This document shows, in pieces, positions 2,004 through 11,046 of a DNA stretch of 11,046 nucleotides. Under the pieces are notes generated by a model. That model saw nothing but the letters and a program-made list of their open reading frames with translations. It had not been told where the DNA came from and searched no databases. The stretch covers positions 1 to 11,046 of the forward strand of contig JAPLUS010000085.1 in NCBI GenBank assembly GCA_026397495.1. The letters are read 5' to 3'. The first letter of the stretch is position 1. The number at the start of each line of letters is the position of its first letter. This stretch comes from Candidatus Zixiibacteriota bacterium (lineage in GTDB: Bacteria > Zixibacteria > MSB-5A5 > GN15 > PGXB01). A program made the position numbers and the translations under genes.

Positions 2004-3272
2004 TTGACTCAATTTTATCATGCTCATAAGGTACTGGAGGAAAAATGTCACGGGCATATGTCATGCATGCGCCGCTGTCCCACTCAGGCTATCAGAGTGA
2101 AATGGGGTAAGGCAATCATCTCCGATGAGCTCTGTGTTGACTGCGGGATTTGCATCCCCGCCTGTCCCTCAAATGCCATCGTTCCCATAACTGATCCTCT
2201 TGCCGAAATTTCCCGCTTTAAGTATAAAGTGGTGGTGCCGTCTTCGGTGCTCTATTCGCAATTTGAGCCAAATATCCACCCCTATATTATTCATTTAATT
2301 TTTAAGAAACTGGGGTTTGACGAAGTTATTGATATTGGATCCTTCTATTCTGCTTTGACCAGGGCCTTATGCAGATATATCGGGACATATCAGAAACGTC
2401 GACCGTTGATTTCTTCACAATGCCCCTCGATTCTAAGATTAATTCAGGTTCGGTATCCGGACCTGGTAGAACTGGGTTTACCTTTGGATGTTCCTCGGGA
2501 ACTCGCGGCGCGTGAAATCAAAAAAATCCTGCCCGCCAGGCTGGGACTGAAGCCGGAAGATATTGGAATAATCTATGTCGCCCCATGCCCGGCCAAGATT
2601 GTCTCTATCAAACAACCGGCCGAGAAAGCCCGATCCTGGTTTGACGGAGCGGTTTCGATTCGGGACGTATATTCAGTTTTGCTACCGCATATTGCGGAAA
2701 TAAAGGAGAAGTTTGACCCAAGCCAAGTGCCGGAGGGGTTTGCTTTTAAAGGCAGTTGGGCAATCCTTGGAGAGGGGACGCGCGGAGCGGAAATGGAGAA
2801 CTGGCTGTCCGTCTCCGGTTTGGATCATGTGATGAAGATATTTGATGACATAGAAAATTCACGTCTGCGGAATATCGATTTTGTCGAGGCCCTGACCTGC
2901 ATGCTGGGGTGTATCAACGGGCCGTTCACGGTTGAAAATCCGTATATCGCTCGTGCCAATAGCATCAGGCAAAGGGCTAAATACGAAAGCAGCGTTGAGC
3001 TTGATGACGCTGATATCGACCGGAAGCTTGAAGAGGGGTATTTTAGTTTGGGAAACCCGGTACTGCCCCGTCCCACAAAATATTTCGATACCGATCTTGA
3101 GACTTCCATAAAAAGGATGAGAGAACGGGAAAGAATATATCATAAGCTCCGTCAGATAGATTGCGGTTGTTGCGGCGCGCCGACATGTATGGCTTTTGCC
3201 GAGGACCTTGTCCGGGGCGAGGCGCAACTTACAGATTGTATATATTTGTATCAGACATGGAATGAAGAATAG
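2004..3272 (+). CDS. [FeFe]-hydrogenase-like sensor protein with ferredoxin and C-terminal Fe-S domains (HydS-like)
   Basis: The protein has 422 residues and starts at TTG. Residues 12-60 are a two-cluster ferredoxin domain: the second site is canonical (C44, C47, C50, C54), while the first is C15, H18, C21, C25, with His where the second Cys normally is. Residues about 70-320 match the H-cluster domain. L1 is SSQCP (C140), L2 is APCPAK (C195, K198) and L3 has C299 and C303, so all four cluster cysteines remain. The proton-relay cysteine before C140 is Q139, the L2 glutamate is missing, and the glycine-rich part of L3 is replaced by INGPFTVENP. Residues 387-412 form a C-x2-C-x4-C-x16-C Fe-S domain (PF04060 type). 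Catalytic hydrogenases need the relay cysteine, so a sensory, H2- or redox-responsive role is more likely. No PAS domain is present, unlike some HydS proteins. The gene is 42 bases upstream of the nuoE-like gene. Confidence 0.85.
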   Translation: MTQFYHAHKVLEEKCHGHMSCMRRCPTQAIRVKWGKAIISDELCVDCGICIPACPSNAIVPITDPLAEISRFKYKVVVPSSVLYSQFEPNIHPYIIHLIFKKLGFDEVIDIGSFYSALTRALCRYIGTYQKRRPLISSQCPSILRLIQVRYPDLVELGLPLDVPRELAAREIKKILPARLGLKPEDIGIIYVAPCPAKIVSIKQPAEKARSWFDGAVSIRDVYSVLLPHIAEIKEKFDPSQVPEGFAFKGSWAILGEGTRGAEMENWLSVSGLDHVMKIFDDIENSRLRNIDFVEALTCMLGCINGPFTVENPYIARANSIRQRAKYESSVELDDADIDRKLEEGYFSLGNPVLPRPTKYFDTDLETSIKRMRERERIYHKLRQIDCGCCGAPTCMAFAEDLVRGEAQLTDCIYLYQTWNEE

Positions 3273-3314: not shown

Positions 3315-3767
3315 GTGACGGTTATGGAATATAGGAATGTCCTCGCCGAATTCCAGGGGGAAGAGGGCGAATTAATTCCCATCCTCCAGAGAATTCAGGA
3401 AAAATTTGGATATATCACCGAAGATGCTATCAAGAATATATCGCCTTTTCTCAAGATTTCAGAAAACCAGATTTATGGAGTGGCTTCATTCTATTCTCAA
3501 TTCAGGTTTACAGAACCAGGGCGAAACTCGATTAAGGTTTGTATGGGAACGGCCTGCCATATGCGAGGGGGACAAATTTTGGGTGAAGCGGTCGAAAGAG
3601 AGCTTGATGTCAAACCCGGGCAGACAACCAAAGACAAGCGGTTCGATTTCCACAGAGTGGCCTGTTTAGGGTGTTGCGCCTTGGCCCCGGTGATTCAGGT
3701 CAATGAAGATATCCGAAGCCGGATGAATGTGATTAAACTCAAAGAGATGCTGGACAAATATGAATAG
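3315..3767 (+). CDS. nuoE: NuoE/HydC-like [2Fe-2S] subunit of a bifurcating oxidoreductase
   Basis: This 150-residue thioredoxin-like ferredoxin subunit matches the 24-kDa NuoE family, including HydC and HndA of bifurcating hydrogenases, in length and motifs. The N-terminal helical part (LIPILQRIQEKFGYI, then YGVASFYSQF) is typical. The [2Fe-2S] ligands are C76 and C81 (CxxxxC, followed by HMRGG) and C117 and C121 (CLGCC, followed by ALAP). In the complex this cluster passes electrons to or from the FMN of the NuoF-like partner. The start is GTG 3315 with AAGGAG upstream. The 3' end overlaps the NuoF-like gene by 8 bases (ATG 3760 inside the last codons), a sign of translational coupling and fixed subunit ratio. 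The protein is cytoplasmic. The family call is very secure; whether the complex is called Hyd, Hnd or Stn depends on the partners downstream. Confidence 0.93.
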   Translation: MTVMEYRNVLAEFQGEEGELIPILQRIQEKFGYITEDAIKNISPFLKISENQIYGVASFYSQFRFTEPGRNSIKVCMGTACHMRGGQILGEAVERELDVKPGQTTKDKRFDFHRVACLGCCALAPVIQVNEDIRSRMNVIKLKEMLDKYE

Positions 3768-5664
3768 CTTCCAACAGTTGCAAAAAGAAGCCGGCAAGGA
3801 ATGGGATTTGCTCCAGAAAAGTACCCTTCCGGTCATCTATGTCGGAACTGCTTCCTGCGGCCGGGCCGCCGGCGCCAAGGATCTGCTGGAGTCGATCAAA
3901 AAAACTCTGGAAGAAAATCAGCTCACGGCAAAAATTGTCGAAGTGGGATGTATCGGCCTCTGCTATTTGGAACCACTGATGGATATCAGACTTCCGGGAC
4001 GCCCCAGAATAAGTTATGCCAACGTTACTCCCGATAAGGCCAGGCGGATTATAGAGGGCCTTATTATCAACGGTAATCCTCAGGCTCAAATGGCCCTTGG
4101 TTATTTCGGCGACGAAGACGGTGATCTTACTCATGGTATTCCACGTTTCTTCGAGCTTCCCATGCTAAAACCCCAGGTCAGAATTGTCCTTAAGAATTGC
4201 GGTTTCATTGATCCCGAAGCGATTGATCATTATATGGCCAATGGGGGGTATGCCGGTTTAATGACCGCTTTCGGAAAAGGACCGGAAGGTGTTATTGCCG
4301 AAGTTCGGGAGGCGGGTCTGCGTGGAAGAGGCGGCGCCGGTTTTCCCACCTACAAAAAATGGGAAACCTGCCGAAATGTCCCGGGCAATATCAAATATAT
4401 GATTTGCAATGCCGATGAGGGGGATCCCGGCGCCTTCATGAATCGTTCCCTGATTGAAGGCGATCCACACTCTGTTTTGGAGGGATTGCTGATTGCCGCT
4501 TATGCTATCGGGGCCACCCACGGATATATCTATATAAGAGCCGAATATCCCCTGGCCATAATCCGTCTTAAAAAAGCAATCGCCCAGATGCACCGCTATG
4601 GCCTTCTTGGCAAGAATATTCAGAACTCGGATTTCGATTTTGATATAACCATAAAGGAGGGTGCCGGCGCTTTTGTATGTGGCGAAGAGACGGCCCTTAT
4701 TGCCTCGATAGAGGGTAAGAGAGGAATGCCAAAGTCACGGCCTCCTTATCCGGCCATTTCCGGACTTCATAATAAACCCACCATCATCAATAATGTCGAG
4801 ACCTTGGGGACATTGCCGAATATTTTGCGAAATGGGGCAACCTGGTACAGGCAATATGGAACACCGGGAAATTATGGTACAAAAACATTCTCTTTGGTGG
4901 GCAAGATACGTCGCTCCGGTCTGATTGAAGTTCCTCTGGGAACGCCCTTGCGGCAAATTATATTTGACATTGGCGGCGGTTCACTCAAACCGTTCAAGGC
5001 AGTCCAGACCGGCGGACCTTCGGGCGGATGTCTTTCTTCGGAGTTTCTCGATACTCCGGTCGACTACGAGTCCCTGGGGGCGGCCGGTTCTATAATGGGC
5101 TCAGGCGGACTGATTGTAATGGATGAAGATACCTGTATTGTCGATGTGGCGAGATATTTCCTTGATTTTACTCAGAAGGAATCATGCGGCAAATGCTCAC
5201 CTTGCCGAGTCGGCTCCGGACATATGGTTGAAATTCTGGAGAGAATTACTAAAGGACAGGGACAGCCCGAAGATTTGATCAAATTACAGACTTTGGGCGA
5301 GACGGTCAAACGGGGCTCTCTCTGTGGGTTGGGACAAACCGCTCCGAATCCCATCTTGACTACCCTACGATATTTCCGGTCGGAGTACCTGTCACATATT
5401 AAAGAAAAGCACTGTCCAGCCGCAGTCTGCAAAGAGCTGATAGAATACAGAGTTGTCCCTGATAAGTGCACCGGGTGCCGACGTTGTGTCAATGTCTGTC
5501 CCACCGGAGCTATCACCGGTCCAAGAGCGGAACCCCACAACCTTGACCCAACCAAATGTATAAAGTGCCGGGCCTGCTATGAAATATGTCGTTTTGATGC
5601 CATAGCCGGCGATGCCATTATTATTAGATCCAGGCGGAGTATTCCCGATGAGCAAACCATCTGA
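3760..5664 (+). CDS. nuoF: NuoF/HydB-like FMN and NADH-binding subunit with N- and C-terminal Fe-S domains
   Basis: A 634-residue flavoprotein, the NAD(H) module and likely site of bifurcation. Residues 1-115 form a thioredoxin-like ferredoxin domain with only three cysteines visible (C33 in SCGRAAGA; C64 and C68 in CIGLC). Residues about 130-550 are the Nqo1/NuoF core. FMN and NADH binding elements are GRGGAGFPTYKKW (189-201), NADEGDPGAFMNR (217-229) and GAGAFVCGEETAL (301-313). The core [4Fe-4S] site is C476, C479, C482 and C522. Residues 565-615 are a two-[4Fe-4S] ferredoxin (C570/573/576/580 and C600/603/606/610), as in HydB and HndC but absent from ordinary complex I NuoF. That extension is characteristic of bifurcating HydBC-type cores. 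It overlaps the preceding gene by 8 bases, and its 3' end overlaps the NuoG-like gene by 17 bases. The protein is cytoplasmic. The family call is very secure. Confidence 0.93.
   Translation: MNSFQQLQKEAGKEWDLLQKSTLPVIYVGTASCGRAAGAKDLLESIKKTLEENQLTAKIVEVGCIGLCYLEPLMDIRLPGRPRISYANVTPDKARRIIEGLIINGNPQAQMALGYFGDEDGDLTHGIPRFFELPMLKPQVRIVLKNCGFIDPEAIDHYMANGGYAGLMTAFGKGPEGVIAEVREAGLRGRGGAGFPTYKKWETCRNVPGNIKYMICNADEGDPGAFMNRSLIEGDPHSVLEGLLIAAYAIGATHGYIYIRAEYPLAIIRLKKAIAQMHRYGLLGKNIQNSDFDFDITIKEGAGAFVCGEETALIASIEGKRGMPKSRPPYPAISGLHNKPTIINNVETLGTLPNILRNGATWYRQYGTPGNYGTKTFSLVGKIRRSGLIEVPLGTPLRQIIFDIGGGSLKPFKAVQTGGPSGGCLSSEFLDTPVDYESLGAAGSIMGSGGLIVMDEDTCIVDVARYFLDFTQKESCGKCSPCRVGSGHMVEILERITKGQGQPEDLIKLQTLGETVKRGSLCGLGQTAPNPILTTLRYFRSEYLSHIKEKHCPAAVCKELIEYRVVPDKCTGCRRCVNVCPTGAITGPRAEPHNLDPTKCIKCRACYEICRFDAIAGDAIIIRSRRSIPDEQTI
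5633..5639 (+). promoter_or_regulatory. Ribosome binding site inside the nuoF-like gene, selects ATG 5648
   Basis: GGCGGAG lies 8 bases before ATG 5648. The frame is open to an ATG at 5612, which has no such site. Residues from 5648 also begin right at the [2Fe-2S] domain, as expected for the family. Confidence 0.55.
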
Positions 5665-8200
5665 GACGATTACCATAAATATTGACAATCAATTCCTGCA
5701 AGTGGGAGCGGGAAAAACCATTCTTCAGGCCGCCGAACAAAACCATATCTATATTCCCACGCTTTGTGCTTATAAGGATCTGACTCCCTTTGGTGGCTGC
5801 CGTATGTGTATTGTGGAAGTAGATGGATTGCGCGGTTTTCCCACCGCCTGCACGACTCCGGTCGTTGAAGGAATGAATATTAGGACCAATACCGTCCAGC
5901 TCCAAAATATAAGATCTGAAATTTTACAGTTAATATTGAGTGAACATCCCTGCAGTTGCCTCATATGTGATGAGCAGGAGGAATGCAAGGAATTCAGCGG
6001 CACTATCCGCAAGGCGACCGTGACAACCGGCTGTCGCTATTGCCCCAATGACGGACAATGTGAATTAGCGGAAGTGGCAAAAAAGGTAGGCGTCAAGGAA
6101 ATCAATTACCCCATCAATTATCGTTACTATCGCGTTGAAAGAGAAGATCCCTTCTATGACCGCGATTATAATCTTTGTATCCTTTGTGGAAGATGCATTC
6201 GAATGTGTCAGGAGATTCGCGCCGCCAATGCCCTGACCTTCAAACAGAGAGGACAAAAGACGGTTATTGGCCCGGCTTATAATCGCACCCATATCGAGGC
6301 CGGTTGCGAGTTCTGCGGCGCCTGCGTTTCAATCTGCCCTACGGGAGCTCTCTCTGAGAAAACCCGAAAATGGGAAGGGAAAGCGGAGCGGGAAGAAATT
6401 ACAACCTGTGCTTTATGTGGGGTCGGATGTCAGGTTCATCTCCAGATTAAAGGCCGCGACATCATTGGCGCACTACCGGCCGATGATCCACTGATCAACA
6501 ATGGACAGCTTTGTGTAAAAGGCCGCTTCTGTATCCCTGAATTGATCAATAATCACCAACGCCTTAAGAAACCTTATCGGGCCCATGATGGCCTTAAGAT
6601 AGAGCTTACCTTCGAACAGGCCATTGAGGAGGCGGCAAAAAAACTTGCCGTCTGCCCGCCCAATGAATTTGGCATGATCGTTTCGCAGAATATTACCAAC
6701 GAGGACCTTTATATTGCTCAGAAGTTTACCCGCGCCGTTATGGGGTCCAATAATATTGACACTATGGCCAGAATATATTATGGGGCCGGTCTCAATAATT
6801 ATGTCGGTTTAATGAAATCTTCCGCGACTCTCGAATCGCTCCGCAAAGCCGCGACTATTCTTTGTATCGGATTGGATACAAGATATGGAGGATCGGTGGT
6901 CGGCGTTGAATTGCGAATGGCAAACAGGAAGGGCGCCAAAATAATTACTATCAATTCCCATCCGCATAACTTATCTATAGTTGCCCACACCTGGTTGAAG
7001 CCGGAATCCGGTGAAGAGGTCGGCTTTATTCAATCGCTGGCACGCCTGATAGGAAAAGCCAAAAGCAAAAGGCCGGATGCCAAATCAGAGACAAAACCCC
7101 ATCCATCCGACAACGATATTGAGACCGCCGCCAGGATTCTGGCCGAGTCGTCCTCAGTAATCATCCTCATCGGTTCGGATGTCTTTAAATATTTGAATAG
7201 TCCCAAGGTCCTCGAAGAAATAGGGAAATTGGCACGGAGTCTTCAGGCCGAGATTATGCCCTTGCCCGCCCAAAATAATTTCAATGGCGCTCTTTTAATG
7301 GGAGCATATCCCGAGCTTCTACCGGGTGGATTTTCTTCTGCAAGAAAAGATAAACAGGCGCAGTTGGGTGAGATCTGGGGCTCTCAAATTCCGGATTGGG
7401 CGACCTCGTGGAATGCCGAAGCGGTTATGACAGGCAAAAGAATGAAAATTCTTTATCTGATCGGCGAGGTTCCTTTGAGAGAACGCCCGGCATCCGATTT
7501 TCTAATCTTTCAAAATCTTTATCCCCCTGAGTCCATTTATCGGACAGATTTGGTCCTGCCCTCGGCGGCCTTCACCGAAATCGATGGTACCTTTATTAAC
7601 GGAGAAGGAAGGTTGCAGAGAGTAAGAAAAGCTGTGGAACCGCCCGGTTTTGCCCTGCCGGATTGGAAAATACTCTGTCTTATAGCCCAAAAAATGGGCA
7701 AGAAGGGTTTTGATTTCGATTCCGTCGACGATGTCCATAAGGAGATTTCATGTCAGGTAAATGGATTCAGCAGCTTGGACAATATCAAGAGGGAGACGGT
7801 TATTATGACGCTGGAACCTGCTTGTCTGACAGGCAAGTCTGATTTTGCAATCGATCCATACCAAGCTCCGGATTCCGGAAAAGCAAACATGGAATTCCCT
7901 TATCTTTTGCACACGGCGATAAGCGAGCATACTTACCGCGGTTTTCCTCTCGCCTCCTATGTCGAGGGGCTAAAAAAACTATTTATAGAAGCGACACTGG
8001 AGATTAGTCCGGAAGATGCCAAGAAGGCCGGCCTAATTTCGGGAGATGAGGTAATTGTAACATCGGCTAAATTCGAGAAAACCTGGCCGGCCAGGATTAT
8101 GGCGGAGCAAACCGCCGGGATATTGCATGTTACCTTGCCTCAGGGTGAAGTGCCGGGGCGCAATCCCTATCCTGTCAGAATAAGGAAAAAAAATGTTTAG
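5648..8200 (+). CDS. NuoG / formate dehydrogenase-like Fe-S subunit without a catalytic Cys or Sec
   Basis: The protein is 850 residues from ATG 5648 (an ATG at 5612 would add 12). Residues 5-80 are a plant-type [2Fe-2S] domain (C40, C51, C54, C68). Next comes a His-Cys3 site (H100, C104, C107, C113) and a second C-x2-C-x5-C set (C129, C132, C138). Two [4Fe-4S] sites follow (C177/180/183/187 and C220/223/226/230). Residues 254-295 are the Fe4S4 part of the molybdopterin oxidoreductase fold (C254, C257, C261, C289). The molybdopterin-like domain spans about 300-730 and the C-terminal dinucleotide-binding beta domain about 775-845. Where formate dehydrogenases have Cys or Sec in an R-V-C/U-H-G context, this protein reads ARIYYGAG, with Tyr377. 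Formate oxidation is therefore unlikely, and an electron-wire or scaffold role as in NuoG is more plausible. Its neighbours are a HydBC-like core upstream and NfnAB-like genes downstream, with 8 bases of overlap. Confidence 0.88.
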   Translation: MSKPSETITINIDNQFLQVGAGKTILQAAEQNHIYIPTLCAYKDLTPFGGCRMCIVEVDGLRGFPTACTTPVVEGMNIRTNTVQLQNIRSEILQLILSEHPCSCLICDEQEECKEFSGTIRKATVTTGCRYCPNDGQCELAEVAKKVGVKEINYPINYRYYRVEREDPFYDRDYNLCILCGRCIRMCQEIRAANALTFKQRGQKTVIGPAYNRTHIEAGCEFCGACVSICPTGALSEKTRKWEGKAEREEITTCALCGVGCQVHLQIKGRDIIGALPADDPLINNGQLCVKGRFCIPELINNHQRLKKPYRAHDGLKIELTFEQAIEEAAKKLAVCPPNEFGMIVSQNITNEDLYIAQKFTRAVMGSNNIDTMARIYYGAGLNNYVGLMKSSATLESLRKAATILCIGLDTRYGGSVVGVELRMANRKGAKIITINSHPHNLSIVAHTWLKPESGEEVGFIQSLARLIGKAKSKRPDAKSETKPHPSDNDIETAARILAESSSVIILIGSDVFKYLNSPKVLEEIGKLARSLQAEIMPLPAQNNFNGALLMGAYPELLPGGFSSARKDKQAQLGEIWGSQIPDWATSWNAEAVMTGKRMKILYLIGEVPLRERPASDFLIFQNLYPPESIYRTDLVLPSAAFTEIDGTFINGEGRLQRVRKAVEPPGFALPDWKILCLIAQKMGKKGFDFDSVDDVHKEISCQVNGFSSLDNIKRETVIMTLEPACLTGKSDFAIDPYQAPDSGKANMEFPYLLHTAISEHTYRGFPLASYVEGLKKLFIEATLEISPEDAKKAGLISGDEVIVTSAKFEKTWPARIMAEQTAGILHVTLPQGEVPGRNPYPVRIRKKNV

Positions 8201-9035
8201 GGTTATAGAAAATCGGATGATTGTTCCCAATATCCATTTATTGGAAATAGAAGCCCCCGCCGTGGCCAGTGAAGTCAGGCCGGGGCAATTTGTGATTCTG
8301 CGTGTCAACGAGGATGGCGAGAGAATACCAGTATCTATCGCCGATTGGGATAGGGAGAAAGGGACAATAATGACCACCATTCTGACCATAGGCGGTACGA
8401 CCGGCGATCTGGCTAAGGTCCCGGCCGGGGCGGATATTCCCACCGTCGTCGGACCTCTCGGTAATGCCACCGCGATTGATATGTTTGGCACGGTCTTGTG
8501 CATTGGCGGCTGTTATGGAATCGGGAGTATTTATCCCATAGCTCGGGCGCTGAAAGAAAAGGGCAATCGAGTCATCACGGCCATTGAAGCCCGCAGTTCA
8601 TACCTTTTTTACTGGGAAGATAAACTGGAAAAAGTATCGGATCGAATTATTCATATCACCCGTGATGGTACCAAAGGATTCCGCGGGCATGTGGGCAGAA
8701 TTTTGGAAATTATGAAGGCCTCCTCGGAAACAATCGATCGAATAATAATCAATGGCTGCACATTTCTTATGAAAAGGGGAACCGATGCCAGCCGTCCTTT
8801 CGGTATCAAGACTATAGTCAGTCTAAATCCGATTATGATTGACGGTACCGGTATGTGCGGGGTCTGCCGAGTAACGGTCGGTTCGAATACAAAATTCGCC
8901 TGTGTCGATGGACCCGACTTTGATGGACATCAGGTTGATTGGCAGGAACTCTTACAGCGCCGGAAGACCTATGTTCGAGAAGAAGCTGTCGCCTTTAGAA
9001 CCAGCCGGTGCGAAGAGCATCGCACAAAACCTTAG
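8193..9035 (+). CDS. nfnA: NfnA/SudB-like FAD and [2Fe-2S] ferredoxin-NAD(P) reductase subunit
   Basis: A 280-residue protein of the ferredoxin-NADP reductase/PyrK family, most like NfnA (gamma subunit of NADH-dependent ferredoxin:NADP+ oxidoreductase) and SudB. The FAD-binding motif is RIPVSIAD (44-51), GPLG lies at 87-90, and the nucleotide-binding loop is GGCYGIGSIYP (105-115). The C-terminal [2Fe-2S] segment is DGTGMCGVCR (217-226) plus C237 in KFACVDGPDFDGHQVDW; in Nfn an aspartate joins three cysteines as ligands. Nfn homologues usually have a third Gly where C107 sits and Ala-Pro in the next turn, so this loop is slightly unusual. ATG 8193 has AAGGA 6 bases upstream and overlaps the NuoG-like gene by 8 bases. 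It stands 12 bases before the NfnB-like gene, its usual partner. It acts in the cytoplasm. A PyrK or SudB role is possible, but the neighbours favour an Nfn-type transhydrogenase. Confidence 0.88.
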   Translation: MFRVIENRMIVPNIHLLEIEAPAVASEVRPGQFVILRVNEDGERIPVSIADWDREKGTIMTTILTIGGTTGDLAKVPAGADIPTVVGPLGNATAIDMFGTVLCIGGCYGIGSIYPIARALKEKGNRVITAIEARSSYLFYWEDKLEKVSDRIIHITRDGTKGFRGHVGRILEIMKASSETIDRIIINGCTFLMKRGTDASRPFGIKTIVSLNPIMIDGTGMCGVCRVTVGSNTKFACVDGPDFDGHQVDWQELLQRRKTYVREEAVAFRTSRCEEHRTKP

Positions 9036-9039
9036 GAAG
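9034..9039 (+). promoter_or_regulatory. Ribosome binding site that selects ATG 9047
   Basis: AGGAAG, overlapping the TAG stop of the nfnA-like gene, lies 7 bases before ATG 9047. The frame could start at ATG 9008, inside the preceding gene, but that site has no good Shine-Dalgarno sequence. Confidence 0.55.
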
Positions 9040-9046
9040 AAATAAT

Positions 9047-10453
9047 ATGGCTGAGCCGCAGAAAAAGAAGCTTGATTTAAATCGAAGAGAAATGCCCAAG
9101 CAACCTCCGGAAGTAAGAAAGCACAATTTTGGCGAGGTGGCTCTCGGGTATTCAATCGAGAATGCGGTGCGGGAGGCCGAGCGGTGTCTTCAATGCAAGA
9201 AACCGTTATGTGTCTCCAAGTGTCCGGTGGAAATTGATATCCCCGGATTTATCAAGAGCGTGGCTCAGAGGGATTTCACGACCGGGATCAAGGTGCTGAA
9301 AGAGAAAAATCTACTGCCGGCTGTCTGCGGTCGAGTATGTCCGCAGGAGGAGCAATGCGAAGAAGTATGTGTGCTTGTGAAAAAGGGCGGGCAGATTGCC
9401 ATCGGTCGCCTTGAAAGATTTTTGGCCGATTGGGAGGCCTCCCAGGAAACGGTGGGAATACCGGAAATTCCTCCATCTACGGGCCGAAAGGTCGCCGTCG
9501 TTGGTGGAGGACCGGCGGGATTGACGGTGGCCGGAGATTTGATAAAATTGGGCCATCAGGTCACGATTTTCGAAGCTCTTCATAAGTTGGGAGGTGTTCT
9601 TACCTATGGCATCCCGGAGTTCAGGCTTCCCAAGGCCATAGTCAACCGTGAGGTTGATTATCTCAGGCGGCTGGGCACAGAAATAGTACCCGATTTCGTG
9701 ATTGGCAAAACCAGAACAATCGAAAGTCTTCTAAAGGAATATAATGCCATTTTTATCGGCGCTGGGGCCGGTCTCCCCTGGTTTATGAATATTCCCGGCG
9801 AGAACCTCAATGGAGTCTATTCGGCCAATGAATACTTGACCAGGATGAATTTGATGAAGGGGTTTCTCTTCCCCGAATATCGCACCCCTATAAAAGAACA
9901 TAAACAGGTGGCGGTCGTCGGCGGCGGGAATGTCGCCATGGATTGTGCCCGAACAGCGCTCAGATTGGGCGCTGAAACCAGAATTATATATAGAAGATCC
10001 AGAGAGGAATTGCCGGCCCGCCTTGAAGAAGTAGAAAATGCCGAAGAGGAGGGAATTATTTTTGAATTCCTGACCTTGCCGATTCGATATATCGGCGACG
10101 AGAACGGCTGGGTAAAGGAAATTGAATATTTGAAAATGAAGCTGGGCGAGCCGGATGCTTCCGGAAGAAGAAGCCCGATTCCGATAGAAGGTTCGCAGAC
10201 AAAGCTTTCAGTCGATGCTGTCGTCTGTGCCATCGGAAATAGCCCTAATCCTCTTATTCCCGCGACGACTCCCGGGTTGACCATGGGCAAGAAAGGTAAC
10301 ATTGTTGCTGACGAACAGACCGGCAAAACCTCGATGGATAGAATTTGGGCCGGAGGCGATGTTGTGACCGGAGCCGCTACCGTCATCCTGGCCATGGGGG
10401 CCGGGCGCAAAGCGGCCAGATCCATACATGAGTATCTTTGCTCTTTGAGTTGA
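9047..10453 (+). CDS. nfnB: NfnB/GltD-like FAD- and NADPH-binding Fe-S subunit
   Basis: The protein is 468 residues from ATG 9047, the usual length for NfnB and for the small subunit of glutamate synthase. Residues 40-110 carry two [4Fe-4S] motifs: C47, C50, C55, C59 (CLQCKKPLCVSKCP) and C94, C98, C104, C108 (CGRVCPQEEQCEEVC). An acidic residue near the second motif can serve as ligand in known NfnB. FAD binding is shown by VAVVGGGPAG (149-158) and the C-terminal GGDVVTGAATVI (436-447). The NADPH site has VAVVGGGNVAMDCA (288-301) followed by the basic pair R316-R317 in YRRSREELPAR, typical of NADP(H) preference. No glutamate synthase large subunit is nearby, so the glutamate synthase label often given to this family is not supported here. 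In this operon it most likely provides the NADPH arm of the transhydrogenase. It is the last gene of the run and cytoplasmic. Confidence 0.9.
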   Translation: MAEPQKKKLDLNRREMPKQPPEVRKHNFGEVALGYSIENAVREAERCLQCKKPLCVSKCPVEIDIPGFIKSVAQRDFTTGIKVLKEKNLLPAVCGRVCPQEEQCEEVCVLVKKGGQIAIGRLERFLADWEASQETVGIPEIPPSTGRKVAVVGGGPAGLTVAGDLIKLGHQVTIFEALHKLGGVLTYGIPEFRLPKAIVNREVDYLRRLGTEIVPDFVIGKTRTIESLLKEYNAIFIGAGAGLPWFMNIPGENLNGVYSANEYLTRMNLMKGFLFPEYRTPIKEHKQVAVVGGGNVAMDCARTALRLGAETRIIYRRSREELPARLEEVENAEEEGIIFEFLTLPIRYIGDENGWVKEIEYLKMKLGEPDASGRRSPIPIEGSQTKLSVDAVVCAIGNSPNPLIPATTPGLTMGKKGNIVADEQTGKTSMDRIWAGGDVVTGAATVILAMGAGRKAARSIHEYLCSLS

Positions 10454-10578: not shown

Positions 10579-11046
10579 ATGGCAAAGATTGACCAACTGC
10601 TGCAAATCGTCAAAGAGGCCAATGCTACCGACCTTCATCTCATGGCCGGCGAAGTCCCCTTTATAAGAGTTCATGGCCAGCTGGAGAAGACTAAACACAA
10701 ACATCTCACCAATGAGGGTGTGAAGCAGCTTATTTATGAAATTTTGACTGACAATCAAATAAGACAGTTCGAAAAAAGCGGCGACCTGGATATGGCCTAT
10801 GGGGTTAAGGATCTGGCTCGTTTTCGGATTAATATCTATCAGACTTATCTCGGTCTGGGTATCGCCATTCGTCTGATTCCCGACGATTGCCCCGATCTAA
10901 TCACCCTCGGATTTTCCAGAGCGATCTCCAAATTAGCCGAAAACAAATCCGGTCTGGTACTGGTTACCGGCCCGACTAATTCCGGCAAGACAACCACGCT
11001 GGCGGCAATGGTCGACCATATCAATACCAATTTTTCCAAACATATT
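10579..11046 (+). CDS. pilT: PilT, type IV pilus retraction ATPase (partial, cut by window end)
   Basis: The first 156 residues are in the window and the gene continues past 11046. ATG 10579 is the only usual in-frame start, because a TAA lies upstream at 10534 with no ATG, GTG or TTG between. The N-terminal domain (about 1-100) has the PilT signature ATDLHLMAG (16-24), where most homologues have SDLH, then ARFRINIYQT and IAIRLIP. The Walker A motif is GPTNSGKTTT (131-140), followed by LAAMVDHIN; PilT proteins usually have GPTGSGKS here, so Asn and Thr replace Gly and Ser, but the Lys is kept. The hexameric cytoplasmic ATPase depolymerises pilin for twitching motility. The Walker B, Asp-box and His-box motifs and AIRNLIRE lie beyond the window, so the PilT versus PilU choice rests on the N-terminus. 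It is separated from the redox operon by 125 bases and functionally unrelated to it. Confidence 0.88.
   Translation, partial: MAKIDQLLQIVKEANATDLHLMAGEVPFIRVHGQLEKTKHKHLTNEGVKQLIYEILTDNQIRQFEKSGDLDMAYGVKDLARFRINIYQTYLGLGIAIRLIPDDCPDLITLGFSRAISKLAENKSGLVLVTGPTNSGKTTTLAAMVDHINTNFSKHI

Follow-up and report, generated by a model that had tools for sequence, protein, structure and literature searches.

The described systems closest to the locus considered here are the Stn/Nfn-Bfu Type 1 enzymes, namely StnABC of Sporomusa ovata and Nfn-Bfu of Thermococcus sibiricus, and the NfnAB enzymes of Thermotoga maritima (4ylf) and Pyrococcus furiosus (NfnI, 5jca). An 11,046-base window, which spans all of contig C298 in a fragmented draft genome of 1.93 Mb (78% complete, in 473 contigs) from a Candidatus Zixiibacteriota bacterium, carries a run of five genes resembling nuoE, nuoF, nuoG, nfnA, and nfnB. 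As in the Type 1 enzymes, a HydBC-type core is combined with a NuoG-like relay and a GltD/NfnB-like NADP(H) part; unlike in Stn, where GltD is inserted in StnC, NfnA is absent, and Lys170 is present, the window has a separate NfnB with Glu, an NfnA, and an uninterrupted NuoG nearer to formate dehydrogenase (FDH). As in NfnAB, both Nfn subunits occur, with flavin adenine dinucleotide (FAD) and Fe–S motifs and with the Glu and Arg of NfnB, but the window's NfnA lacks the GxGxxP and GP motifs and the pair travels with NuoEFG.

Other relatives resemble the locus in part. Fdh-Bfu has NuoE, NuoF, and NuoG with an FDH-type BfuA, and the NuoF of Chloroflexota clusters with both FDH and NfnAB is sister to the window's clade; the window differs in lacking the active-site Cys/Sec and in having NfnAB added. 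P. furiosus NfnII (Xfn, 5vj7) also has an altered NfnA nucleotide domain and, in the available text of PMC6405883, is reported to lack NAD+-dependent activity, but its changes are not the same, with GCYG and GCT absent in the alignment. In the Bfu enzymes of Types 2 and 3, which add further catalytic subunits to BfuABC (NiFe-Bfu and Wor-Bfu are examples), separate subunits likewise handle the third substrate and feed BfuA; a separate NfnAB is used by none of the Bfu types in the accessible text of PMC9304861. A separate NfnAB on a Bfu core was not found described in the part of the open-access literature that was searched and accessible. The locus suggests a transhydrogenase assembled in a manner not yet described, and it is considered moderately probable that the five proteins form one NADP(H)/NAD(H)/ferredoxin complex, with NfnAB feeding NADP(H) electrons into a Bfu core.

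All five genes lie on the plus strand, with domains assigned by Pfam and NCBIfam. NuoE (BfuC; 3315–3767) is a thioredoxin-like [2Fe-2S] subunit (2Fe-2S_thioredx, E = 2.6e-46), and NuoF (BfuB; 3760–5664) is the flavin mononucleotide (FMN) and NADH subunit of the bifurcating core, with extra Fe–S domains. The NuoG-like subunit (BfuA; 5612–8200, with an inner ATG at 5648 also a likely start) has 862 residues and appears to be an Fe–S relay on an FDH scaffold (Molybdopterin, E = 8.2e-30). NfnA (8193–9035) is of an altered class, with FAD and [2Fe-2S] motifs present and NAD(H) motifs gone, and the GltD-like NfnB (9008–10453; its GTG start at 9008 is uncertain, an alternative being the ATG at 9047) has NADP(H), FAD, and two [4Fe-4S] sites. 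The reading frames of NuoG and NfnA share 8 nucleotides in the window; such an overlap occurs in 28 of the 32 loci, window included, for which both ends could be placed by script with start codons set by the author's rule, and is exactly 8 nucleotides in 21. The preliminary description, made from the window's sequence, had placed the five genes in one run and the NuoG-like and NfnB-like parts in separate genes, and coordinates and domains bear out both points. It had also described a NuoG of full FDH length and an added NfnA homologue; the length is right and NfnA is present, but the FDH active site is lost and the NfnA is not an ordinary one, both of its NAD(H) motifs being gone.

Gene set and order, co-inheritance, and kept or lost ligands and motifs were read directly from the sequences, and from them we infer a physical complex, its electron path and overall reaction, and a loss of NAD(H) binding by NfnA. 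The single soluble complex would couple NADPH reversibly to NADH and reduced ferredoxin. NuoE and NuoF would form its HydBC/Bfu bifurcating core, binding NAD(H) and ferredoxin, NuoG would be an Fe–S relay on a retired FDH scaffold, and NfnAB would be the NADP(H) module of the core. Electrons from NADPH would enter at the FAD of NfnB and reach the FMN site of NuoF by way of the [4Fe-4S] clusters of NfnB and, after them, the Fe–S chain of NuoG. In NfnA, the pyridine-nucleotide pocket would have been rebuilt with two invariant cysteines and NAD(H) use abandoned, the subunit serving either as an electron relay or gate inside the complex or in the reduction of another acceptor. A precedent exists in StnABC, where an NfnB-like domain supplies NuoG and a HydBC core (PMC10482914, available text).

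NuoE and NuoF are a Bfu core as defined in the accessible text of PMC9304861, because the core cysteines are retained. C76, C81, C117, and C121 of NuoE are present in 21/21 rows, and 23 cysteines of NuoF are each present in 21–23 of 23 operon rows, most of them also in Stn-type and FDH-type NuoF; the BfuB FMN domain, the extra Fe–S cysteines (B1–B5), and BfuC were all found. The origin of NuoF is equivocal between Stn and FDH, since its best solved matches are Stn-type (9n5u_B, 9bov_B, and StnB 8oh5_B) while its sister group in the tree is FDH-type with NfnAB. In that tree—its rows, like those of the wider trees, chosen by the author (27, 53, and 46 rows)—17 of 19 operon rows form one clade, with the two Chloroflexota FDH+NfnAB clusters as sister (100/99), followed by StnB. 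Loci L044, L138, and L008 are more distant, L008 (FDH-type, without NfnAB) falling beyond StnB on a long branch.

On alignment, the NuoG-like subunit is an FDH scaffold with a lost active site. Its best solved matches are alpha subunits of NAD-dependent FDHs, at 330 and 316 bits versus 208 for StnC, and its first fold matches are 9ktl_A and 6tg9_A (predicted local distance difference test score, pLDDT, 73.4 for the model, lowest at residues 1–16 and 165–251). Tyr389-Tyr390 (codons 6776–6781, plus strand) replace the catalytic Cys/Sec-His of FDH. Among the best 120 of 4184 homologues, the first site is F in 113, Y in 4, S in 2, and H in 1, and the following one is Y in 118, C in 1, and F in 1; a catalytic Cys at the first site occurs in 0 of 23 operon rows. 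The 23 presumed Fe–S ligand positions (22 Cys and His112), assigned by motif, are kept in 117–120 of the same best 120, Cys307 is kept in 104, and the 22 presumed ligand cysteines are present in 23/23 operon rows. The protein has a molybdopterin fold and not the H-cluster domain of HydABC, and no GltD domain, the Stn trait, lies inside it, the two parts being encoded at 5612–8200 and 9008–10453. The FdhF-like domain of StnC is catalytically inactive too (PMC10482914, in part). As a separate observation, NuoG residues 111–150 hold consecutive cysteine motifs (C116/C119/C125 and C141/C144/C150), which do not vary across the rows read; the GltD insertion of StnC lies near these motifs, which FDH-type NuoG has as well.

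NfnB has the features of its type, namely FAD, an NADP(H) domain, two [4Fe-4S] sites, the Glu ligand, and the Arg at FAD N5, and its best solved match is T. maritima NfnB (4ylf_B, E = 1.9e-171). Glu136 (codon 9413–9415, plus strand) occupies the cluster-ligand position of Lys170 in StnC, as mapped through the StnC-like 9bov_A, so that the Stn-type Lys at the proximal cluster is absent. Arg206 (9623–9625, plus strand) corresponds to NfnB R201, near FAD N5, and StnC retains this Arg as well; the Lys170/Glu distinction and the role of R201 are given in the available part of PMC10482914. Operon NfnB is set apart from the standalone class at W258, H298, V309, N344, and other positions, and 28 of 29 operon rows form one clade (100/99), the exception being that of genome G212, on a long branch; L042, L043, L044, and L084 were left out of this tree, their extracted frames having begun upstream of an in-frame stop.

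NfnA was compared over 24 operon and 24 standalone rows from the window's phylum. The GxGxxP motif is changed to CYGIGS, with Cys107 (codon 8511–8513, plus strand) in 24/24 operon rows versus Gly in 24/24 standalone rows, and the GP motif is changed to GC (NGCT in the window), with Cys189 (8757–8759, plus strand) in 24/24 versus Pro in 24/24. Three further positions separate the two sets completely (operon versus standalone, each 24/24 versus 24/24): 84 (Thr versus Asp), 132 (Glu versus Gly), and 157 (Arg versus Asp). At 112, Ser in 24/24 operon rows stands against Pro in 21/24, at 166, His in 24/24 against Phe in 21/24, and the sets differ also at 47, 190, and 250. In a second phylum (80 genomes sampled, including G132 with locus L009, Krumholzibacteriota), GCYG and GCT occur in 8/8 operon NfnA and are absent from five standalone ones; across both phyla, Cys107 and Cys189 are found in 32/32 operon and 0/29 standalone rows. 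The FAD motif and [2Fe-2S] ligands are retained in the alignment. In cytochrome b5 reductase, the motifs for the pyridine nucleotide are GxGxxP and CGPPPM, and the residue that packs against the diphosphate of NAD is P275 (PMC8745658, available text). The changes in NfnA were mapped onto these by motif, and the folds are related (7rom is among the fold matches). Since both NAD(H)-binding motifs are replaced, it is inferred that operon NfnA lacks the usual mode of NAD(H) use, for which P. furiosus NfnII provides a precedent (PMC6405883, in part). The AlphaFold model (pLDDT 89.3) is nearest in fold to P. furiosus NfnA (5jca_S, E = 4.8e-38), and Cys107 directly follows strand 100–106 in it, as Cys189 does strand 183–187. 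With the strand order that we take a Rossmann-like sheet to have, the model puts both cysteines at the same edge of the sheet.

Operon NfnA forms one clade, with 32/32 rows (100/98), in a tree of 62 rows, and the operon clades of the NfnA and NfnB trees intermix both phyla, with standalone copies from the same genomes outside. In a wider NfnA tree, to which rows from the database and from Chloroflexota were added, 15 of the 16 operon NfnA group together, and a single altered clade of 25 rows (100/99) includes G212, L179, and L211. When the best 120 matches from each of two database searches (about 8,000 matches) were inspected, GC[YF]G was present in 240/240 NfnA, window included, and the second Cys in 238; names among the best-listed matches include Desulfatiglandales, Aminicenantes, and Elusimicrobiota. 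Viral contigs scanned with the NfnA query P0352 gave zero matches.

The linkage of the five genes was followed through 132 genomes of the window's phylum. NuoG was found at E ≤ 1e-100 in 24 of them, G049 having an additional partial copy at a contig end. NfnB at the same threshold occurs in 93 places, divided into 25 of the operon class (73–86% identity, the window itself being 100%) and 68 others (51–66%). NuoG sequence lies immediately 5′ of NfnA on the same contig in 23 of the 25 operon-class cases, and in the other two (G071 and G075) the contig ends before the NuoG position. NuoEFG was found in 0 of the 26 standalone NfnAB loci read out of the 68 places, with 3–14 kb read in each. Nine operon-bearing genomes additionally carry standalone NfnAB (L096–L101 and L140–L142), and two, G041 and G044, carry Stn-type loci as well, so that the operon is not plainly redundant with Nfn or Stn. 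Within the order to which the window's genome belongs, the Stn-type clusters L056–L059 encode StnC-like frames of about 1245 residues, and G041 and G044 account for two of these clusters; a second match, of 971 residues, was seen in G055.

In the second phylum, NuoG was found at E ≤ 1e-70 in 7/80 genomes and operon-class NfnA in 8/80 (52–68% identity), a more divergent NuoG adjoining NfnA in the eighth (G154, locus L145). With the nine genes of the usual cluster lettered A–I in their order in the window, A–D being the upstream genes described below, the order is A–I in L103 (NfnB cut), A,B,E,F,G,H,I,C,D in L106, and G,H,I,C,D (cut) in L145; in both L106 and L145, genes C and D are thus downstream rather than upstream of the five-gene set. 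In G212, NfnB-NuoE-NuoF-NuoG lies on contig L138 and NuoG-NfnA on contig L109, with a 146-nucleotide overlap between the contig ends, the first 126 nucleotides being identical. In G209 (L102/L136) and G210 (L104/L137), NuoEFG lies about 0.9 and 1.1 Mb away from NfnAB, and a C-terminal piece of NuoG still precedes NfnA; because this piece remains there, the cluster is read as broken inside nuoG, through evolution or assembly. As the orders in L106 and G212 show by differing, the five-gene set survives rearrangement: the five genes stay together while the regulators move, and NfnB and NfnA may flank NuoEFG on opposite sides. The set also survives subunit exchange, since NfnB of G212 falls outside the operon clade (long branch, position unsure) and NuoEF of G003 is divergent. 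The preliminary description was to be judged by whether nfnAB and the NuoEFG-like genes usually occur apart; they were found linked in 23/25 cases, the other 2 being cut by contig ends, and apart in 2/8 of the second phylum, each with a NuoG fragment beside NfnA. That the five genes are one evolutionary unit is supported by this pattern.

In a third sample, of 400 Chloroflexota genomes, NfnA at E ≤ 1e-75 to P0352 was found in 51, and all 51 loci (L178–L228) were read. Two of them, L179 and L204, adjoin NuoEFG, in both cases with a Cys-His NuoG; NfnA is altered in L179 and canonical in L204. None of the other 49 has GC[YF]G. L179 combines an NfnB of the local Chloroflexota type with an NfnA inside the altered clade, and therefore parts have been swapped while the set persisted. 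A rule that NfnA is altered if and only if it stands beside NuoEFG held in the rows read of the two main phyla and is broken by L204. A different altered pocket (CSTFG/FGRVF), away from NuoEFG, was seen in L211–L213.

Several observations weigh against the single complex fed by NfnAB. The physical association and the reaction are both deduced from sequence. The Glu of stand-alone bifurcating NfnB is retained, although an NfnB that served as a passive entry for NADPH, like the Lys-bearing StnC, would have no need of it. The cluster is split inside nuoG in G209 and G210. In L204, the five genes occur with canonical NAD motifs in NfnA, so that the altered pocket is not needed for linkage, whereas L211, with its differently altered pocket and without NuoEFG nearby, falls inside the altered clade. 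In the wider tree, G212 has its NfnA among database rows, and the operon clade is recovered only in the narrower set. Most altered NfnA of the database are known without gene context. Distance-matrix correlation, too, was discarded as proof of interaction: a first run gave NfnB values of 0.11–0.27, and with 14 of the 16 loci (without L044, whose NuoEF is divergent, and L083, whose NfnB is broken), NfnA and NfnB versus NuoE, NuoF, and NuoG gave 0.70–0.81 and genes C and D versus the subunits 0.49–0.87, leaving the subunits not separable from the neighboring regulators.

Unlikely, but the strongest competitor, is that two enzymes share one operon and the same redox pools, that is, a variant of NfnAB and, apart from it, a bifurcating enzyme made of NuoEFG and acting on a third substrate of its own. 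NfnAB is a complete enzyme alone elsewhere and NfnB retains its bifurcation residues here, G209 and G210 have a split cluster, and L008 has an FDH-type NuoEFG without adjoining NfnAB. However, the loss of the FDH catalytic residues from NuoG would leave the Bfu core without a known third substrate, NuoEFG sits between NfnB and NfnA in G212, and operon NfnA is sharply distinct from the standalone NfnA of the same genomes.

By sequence, the five-gene complex could have the two bifurcation sites that the preliminary description proposed. In one version, considered somewhat less credible than the two enzymes, these act in series within one complex: the FAD of NfnB would split NADPH electrons, sending low-potential electrons to NuoG and high-potential electrons via NfnA to an acceptor other than NAD+, and the NuoF site would split or merge electrons again, this time with NAD(H) and ferredoxin. 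Consistent with this are the retention of Glu136 and Arg206 in NfnB, of the [2Fe-2S] ligands and FAD motif in an NfnA without NAD(H) motifs, and of the Bfu cysteines in NuoF, as well as the proposal, in the accessible part of PMC9304861, that Bam-Bfu joins Bfu and HdrA bifurcation modules. Against it, the NfnA branch has no known acceptor, the Arg is also present in StnC, whose FAD is reported to be non-bifurcating (PMC10482914, available text), and the energetic need is unclear. An extension of similarly low credibility would place the sites at the NfnB FAD and the NuoF FMN/Fe–S and make Cys107 and Cys189 a flavin-side dithiol or metal site that passes the high-potential electron either on to a fourth partner or back to the chain of NuoG and NuoF, the complex having arisen as NfnAB joined a bifurcating FDH whose formate site was then retired.

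Very improbable, in turn, is a complex in which the molybdopterin domain of NuoG has kept its activity on formate or some other oxyanion, with NfnAB linking this activity to NADP(H). NuoG does have the FDH fold, and an FDH-like NuoG with Cys-His occurs in the related Chloroflexota loci L179 and L204, but neither the window nor any of the best 120 of 4184 homologues retains the catalytic Cys/Sec, and the next His is replaced as well; an active FDH was accordingly rejected, Cys/Sec being absent from the operon rows as well. A chance neighborhood, or nfnAB next to the N-module of an ordinary complex I, would be permitted by the gene names nuoEFG and nfnAB alone, but this idea is refuted already by linkage conserved in two phyla, and no complex I membrane or quinone-module genes were found among the nine window proteins scanned, leaving it a negligible probability.

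With respect to origin, the locus had been placed between Nfn and Stn in the preliminary description, an architecture that now appears doubtful and is not preferred: NuoG scores best against NAD-dependent FDH and is nearer to it than to StnC, NfnB has Glu and not Lys, and NuoF is undecided. A route through FDH looks likelier, because NuoG is nearer to FDH than to StnC and two Chloroflexota clusters pair an FDH-type NuoEFG with NfnAB. The order of events suggested by these two clusters would be an FDH-type NuoEFG, the joining of NfnAB, alteration of the NfnA pocket, and loss of the formate site. As a separate observation, the FDH-type NuoG of L008 (2456–5284), in a NuoEFG without NfnAB, has TGA at the catalytic position, a probable selenocysteine codon.

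If the single complex fed by NfnAB is real, an entire NfnAB pair is able to power a Bfu core, and two bifurcation systems thought to be alternatives can combine. The altered NfnA would also be a natural test of where in Nfn the need for NAD(H) lies. The related FDH-type clusters suggest how a formate enzyme became a transhydrogenase, and GCYG plus GC in NfnA is a candidate marker for such complexes in uncultured bacteria.

The conserved unit is larger than five genes. Four further plus-strand genes, A–D, lie upstream of the run and are kept in the same order across the window's phylum, and the usual cluster of nine (A–I), whose four extra genes look regulatory, is found in order on a single stretch in the window and 14 relatives (L042–L051, L006, L082, L083, and L087). 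Gene A (117–707) encodes a conserved Cys-rich protein, with 9 Cys in 18/18 rows including the window and no Pfam or NCBIfam match. Gene B (749–1096) is of the DRTGG type (Pfam DRTGG, E = 5.7e-5, slightly under the cut-off), is 70–84% identical to its 17 relatives, and is probably regulatory, as is gene C (1144–1971), which combines DRTGG with an anti-sigma-like HATPase (HATPase_c_2, E = 9.9e-9, and an anti-sigma F-like NCBIfam match under the cut-off). Gene D (2004–3272) is Fe-hydrogenase-like, with Fer4, Fe_hyd_lg_C (E = 1.5e-22), and FeS domains. Of four Cys presumed to be cubane ligands, three are kept in 21/21 rows and the fourth in 11/21; because of this fourth position, gene D is probably non-functional as a hydrogenase, a working hydrogenase being unlikely and a sensory or regulatory role probable. 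The run was said to lack a catalytic hydrogenase subunit, which holds, although gene D is a homologue of the Fe-hydrogenase large subunit. Genes for group C3 and A3 hydrogenases are reported together in Hydrogenedentota (PMC11406978, in part).

Minor observations concern individual loci. Downstream of the run, what appears to be a PilT-like ATPase gene, as read from its sequence, starts at 10579 (plus strand). In L083 (13463–14350, genome G106), an in-frame stop breaks NfnB. In L044 (11264–13641), NuoE and NuoF are 57–58% identical to those of the window and the other seven genes 59–80%, and the core pair seems to have been exchanged in place. Finally, L060 (5291–8339), on contig C437 of the window's own genome, holds a second Bfu-type NuoF, a 258-residue BfuA-like protein, and a small 4Fe-4S protein.

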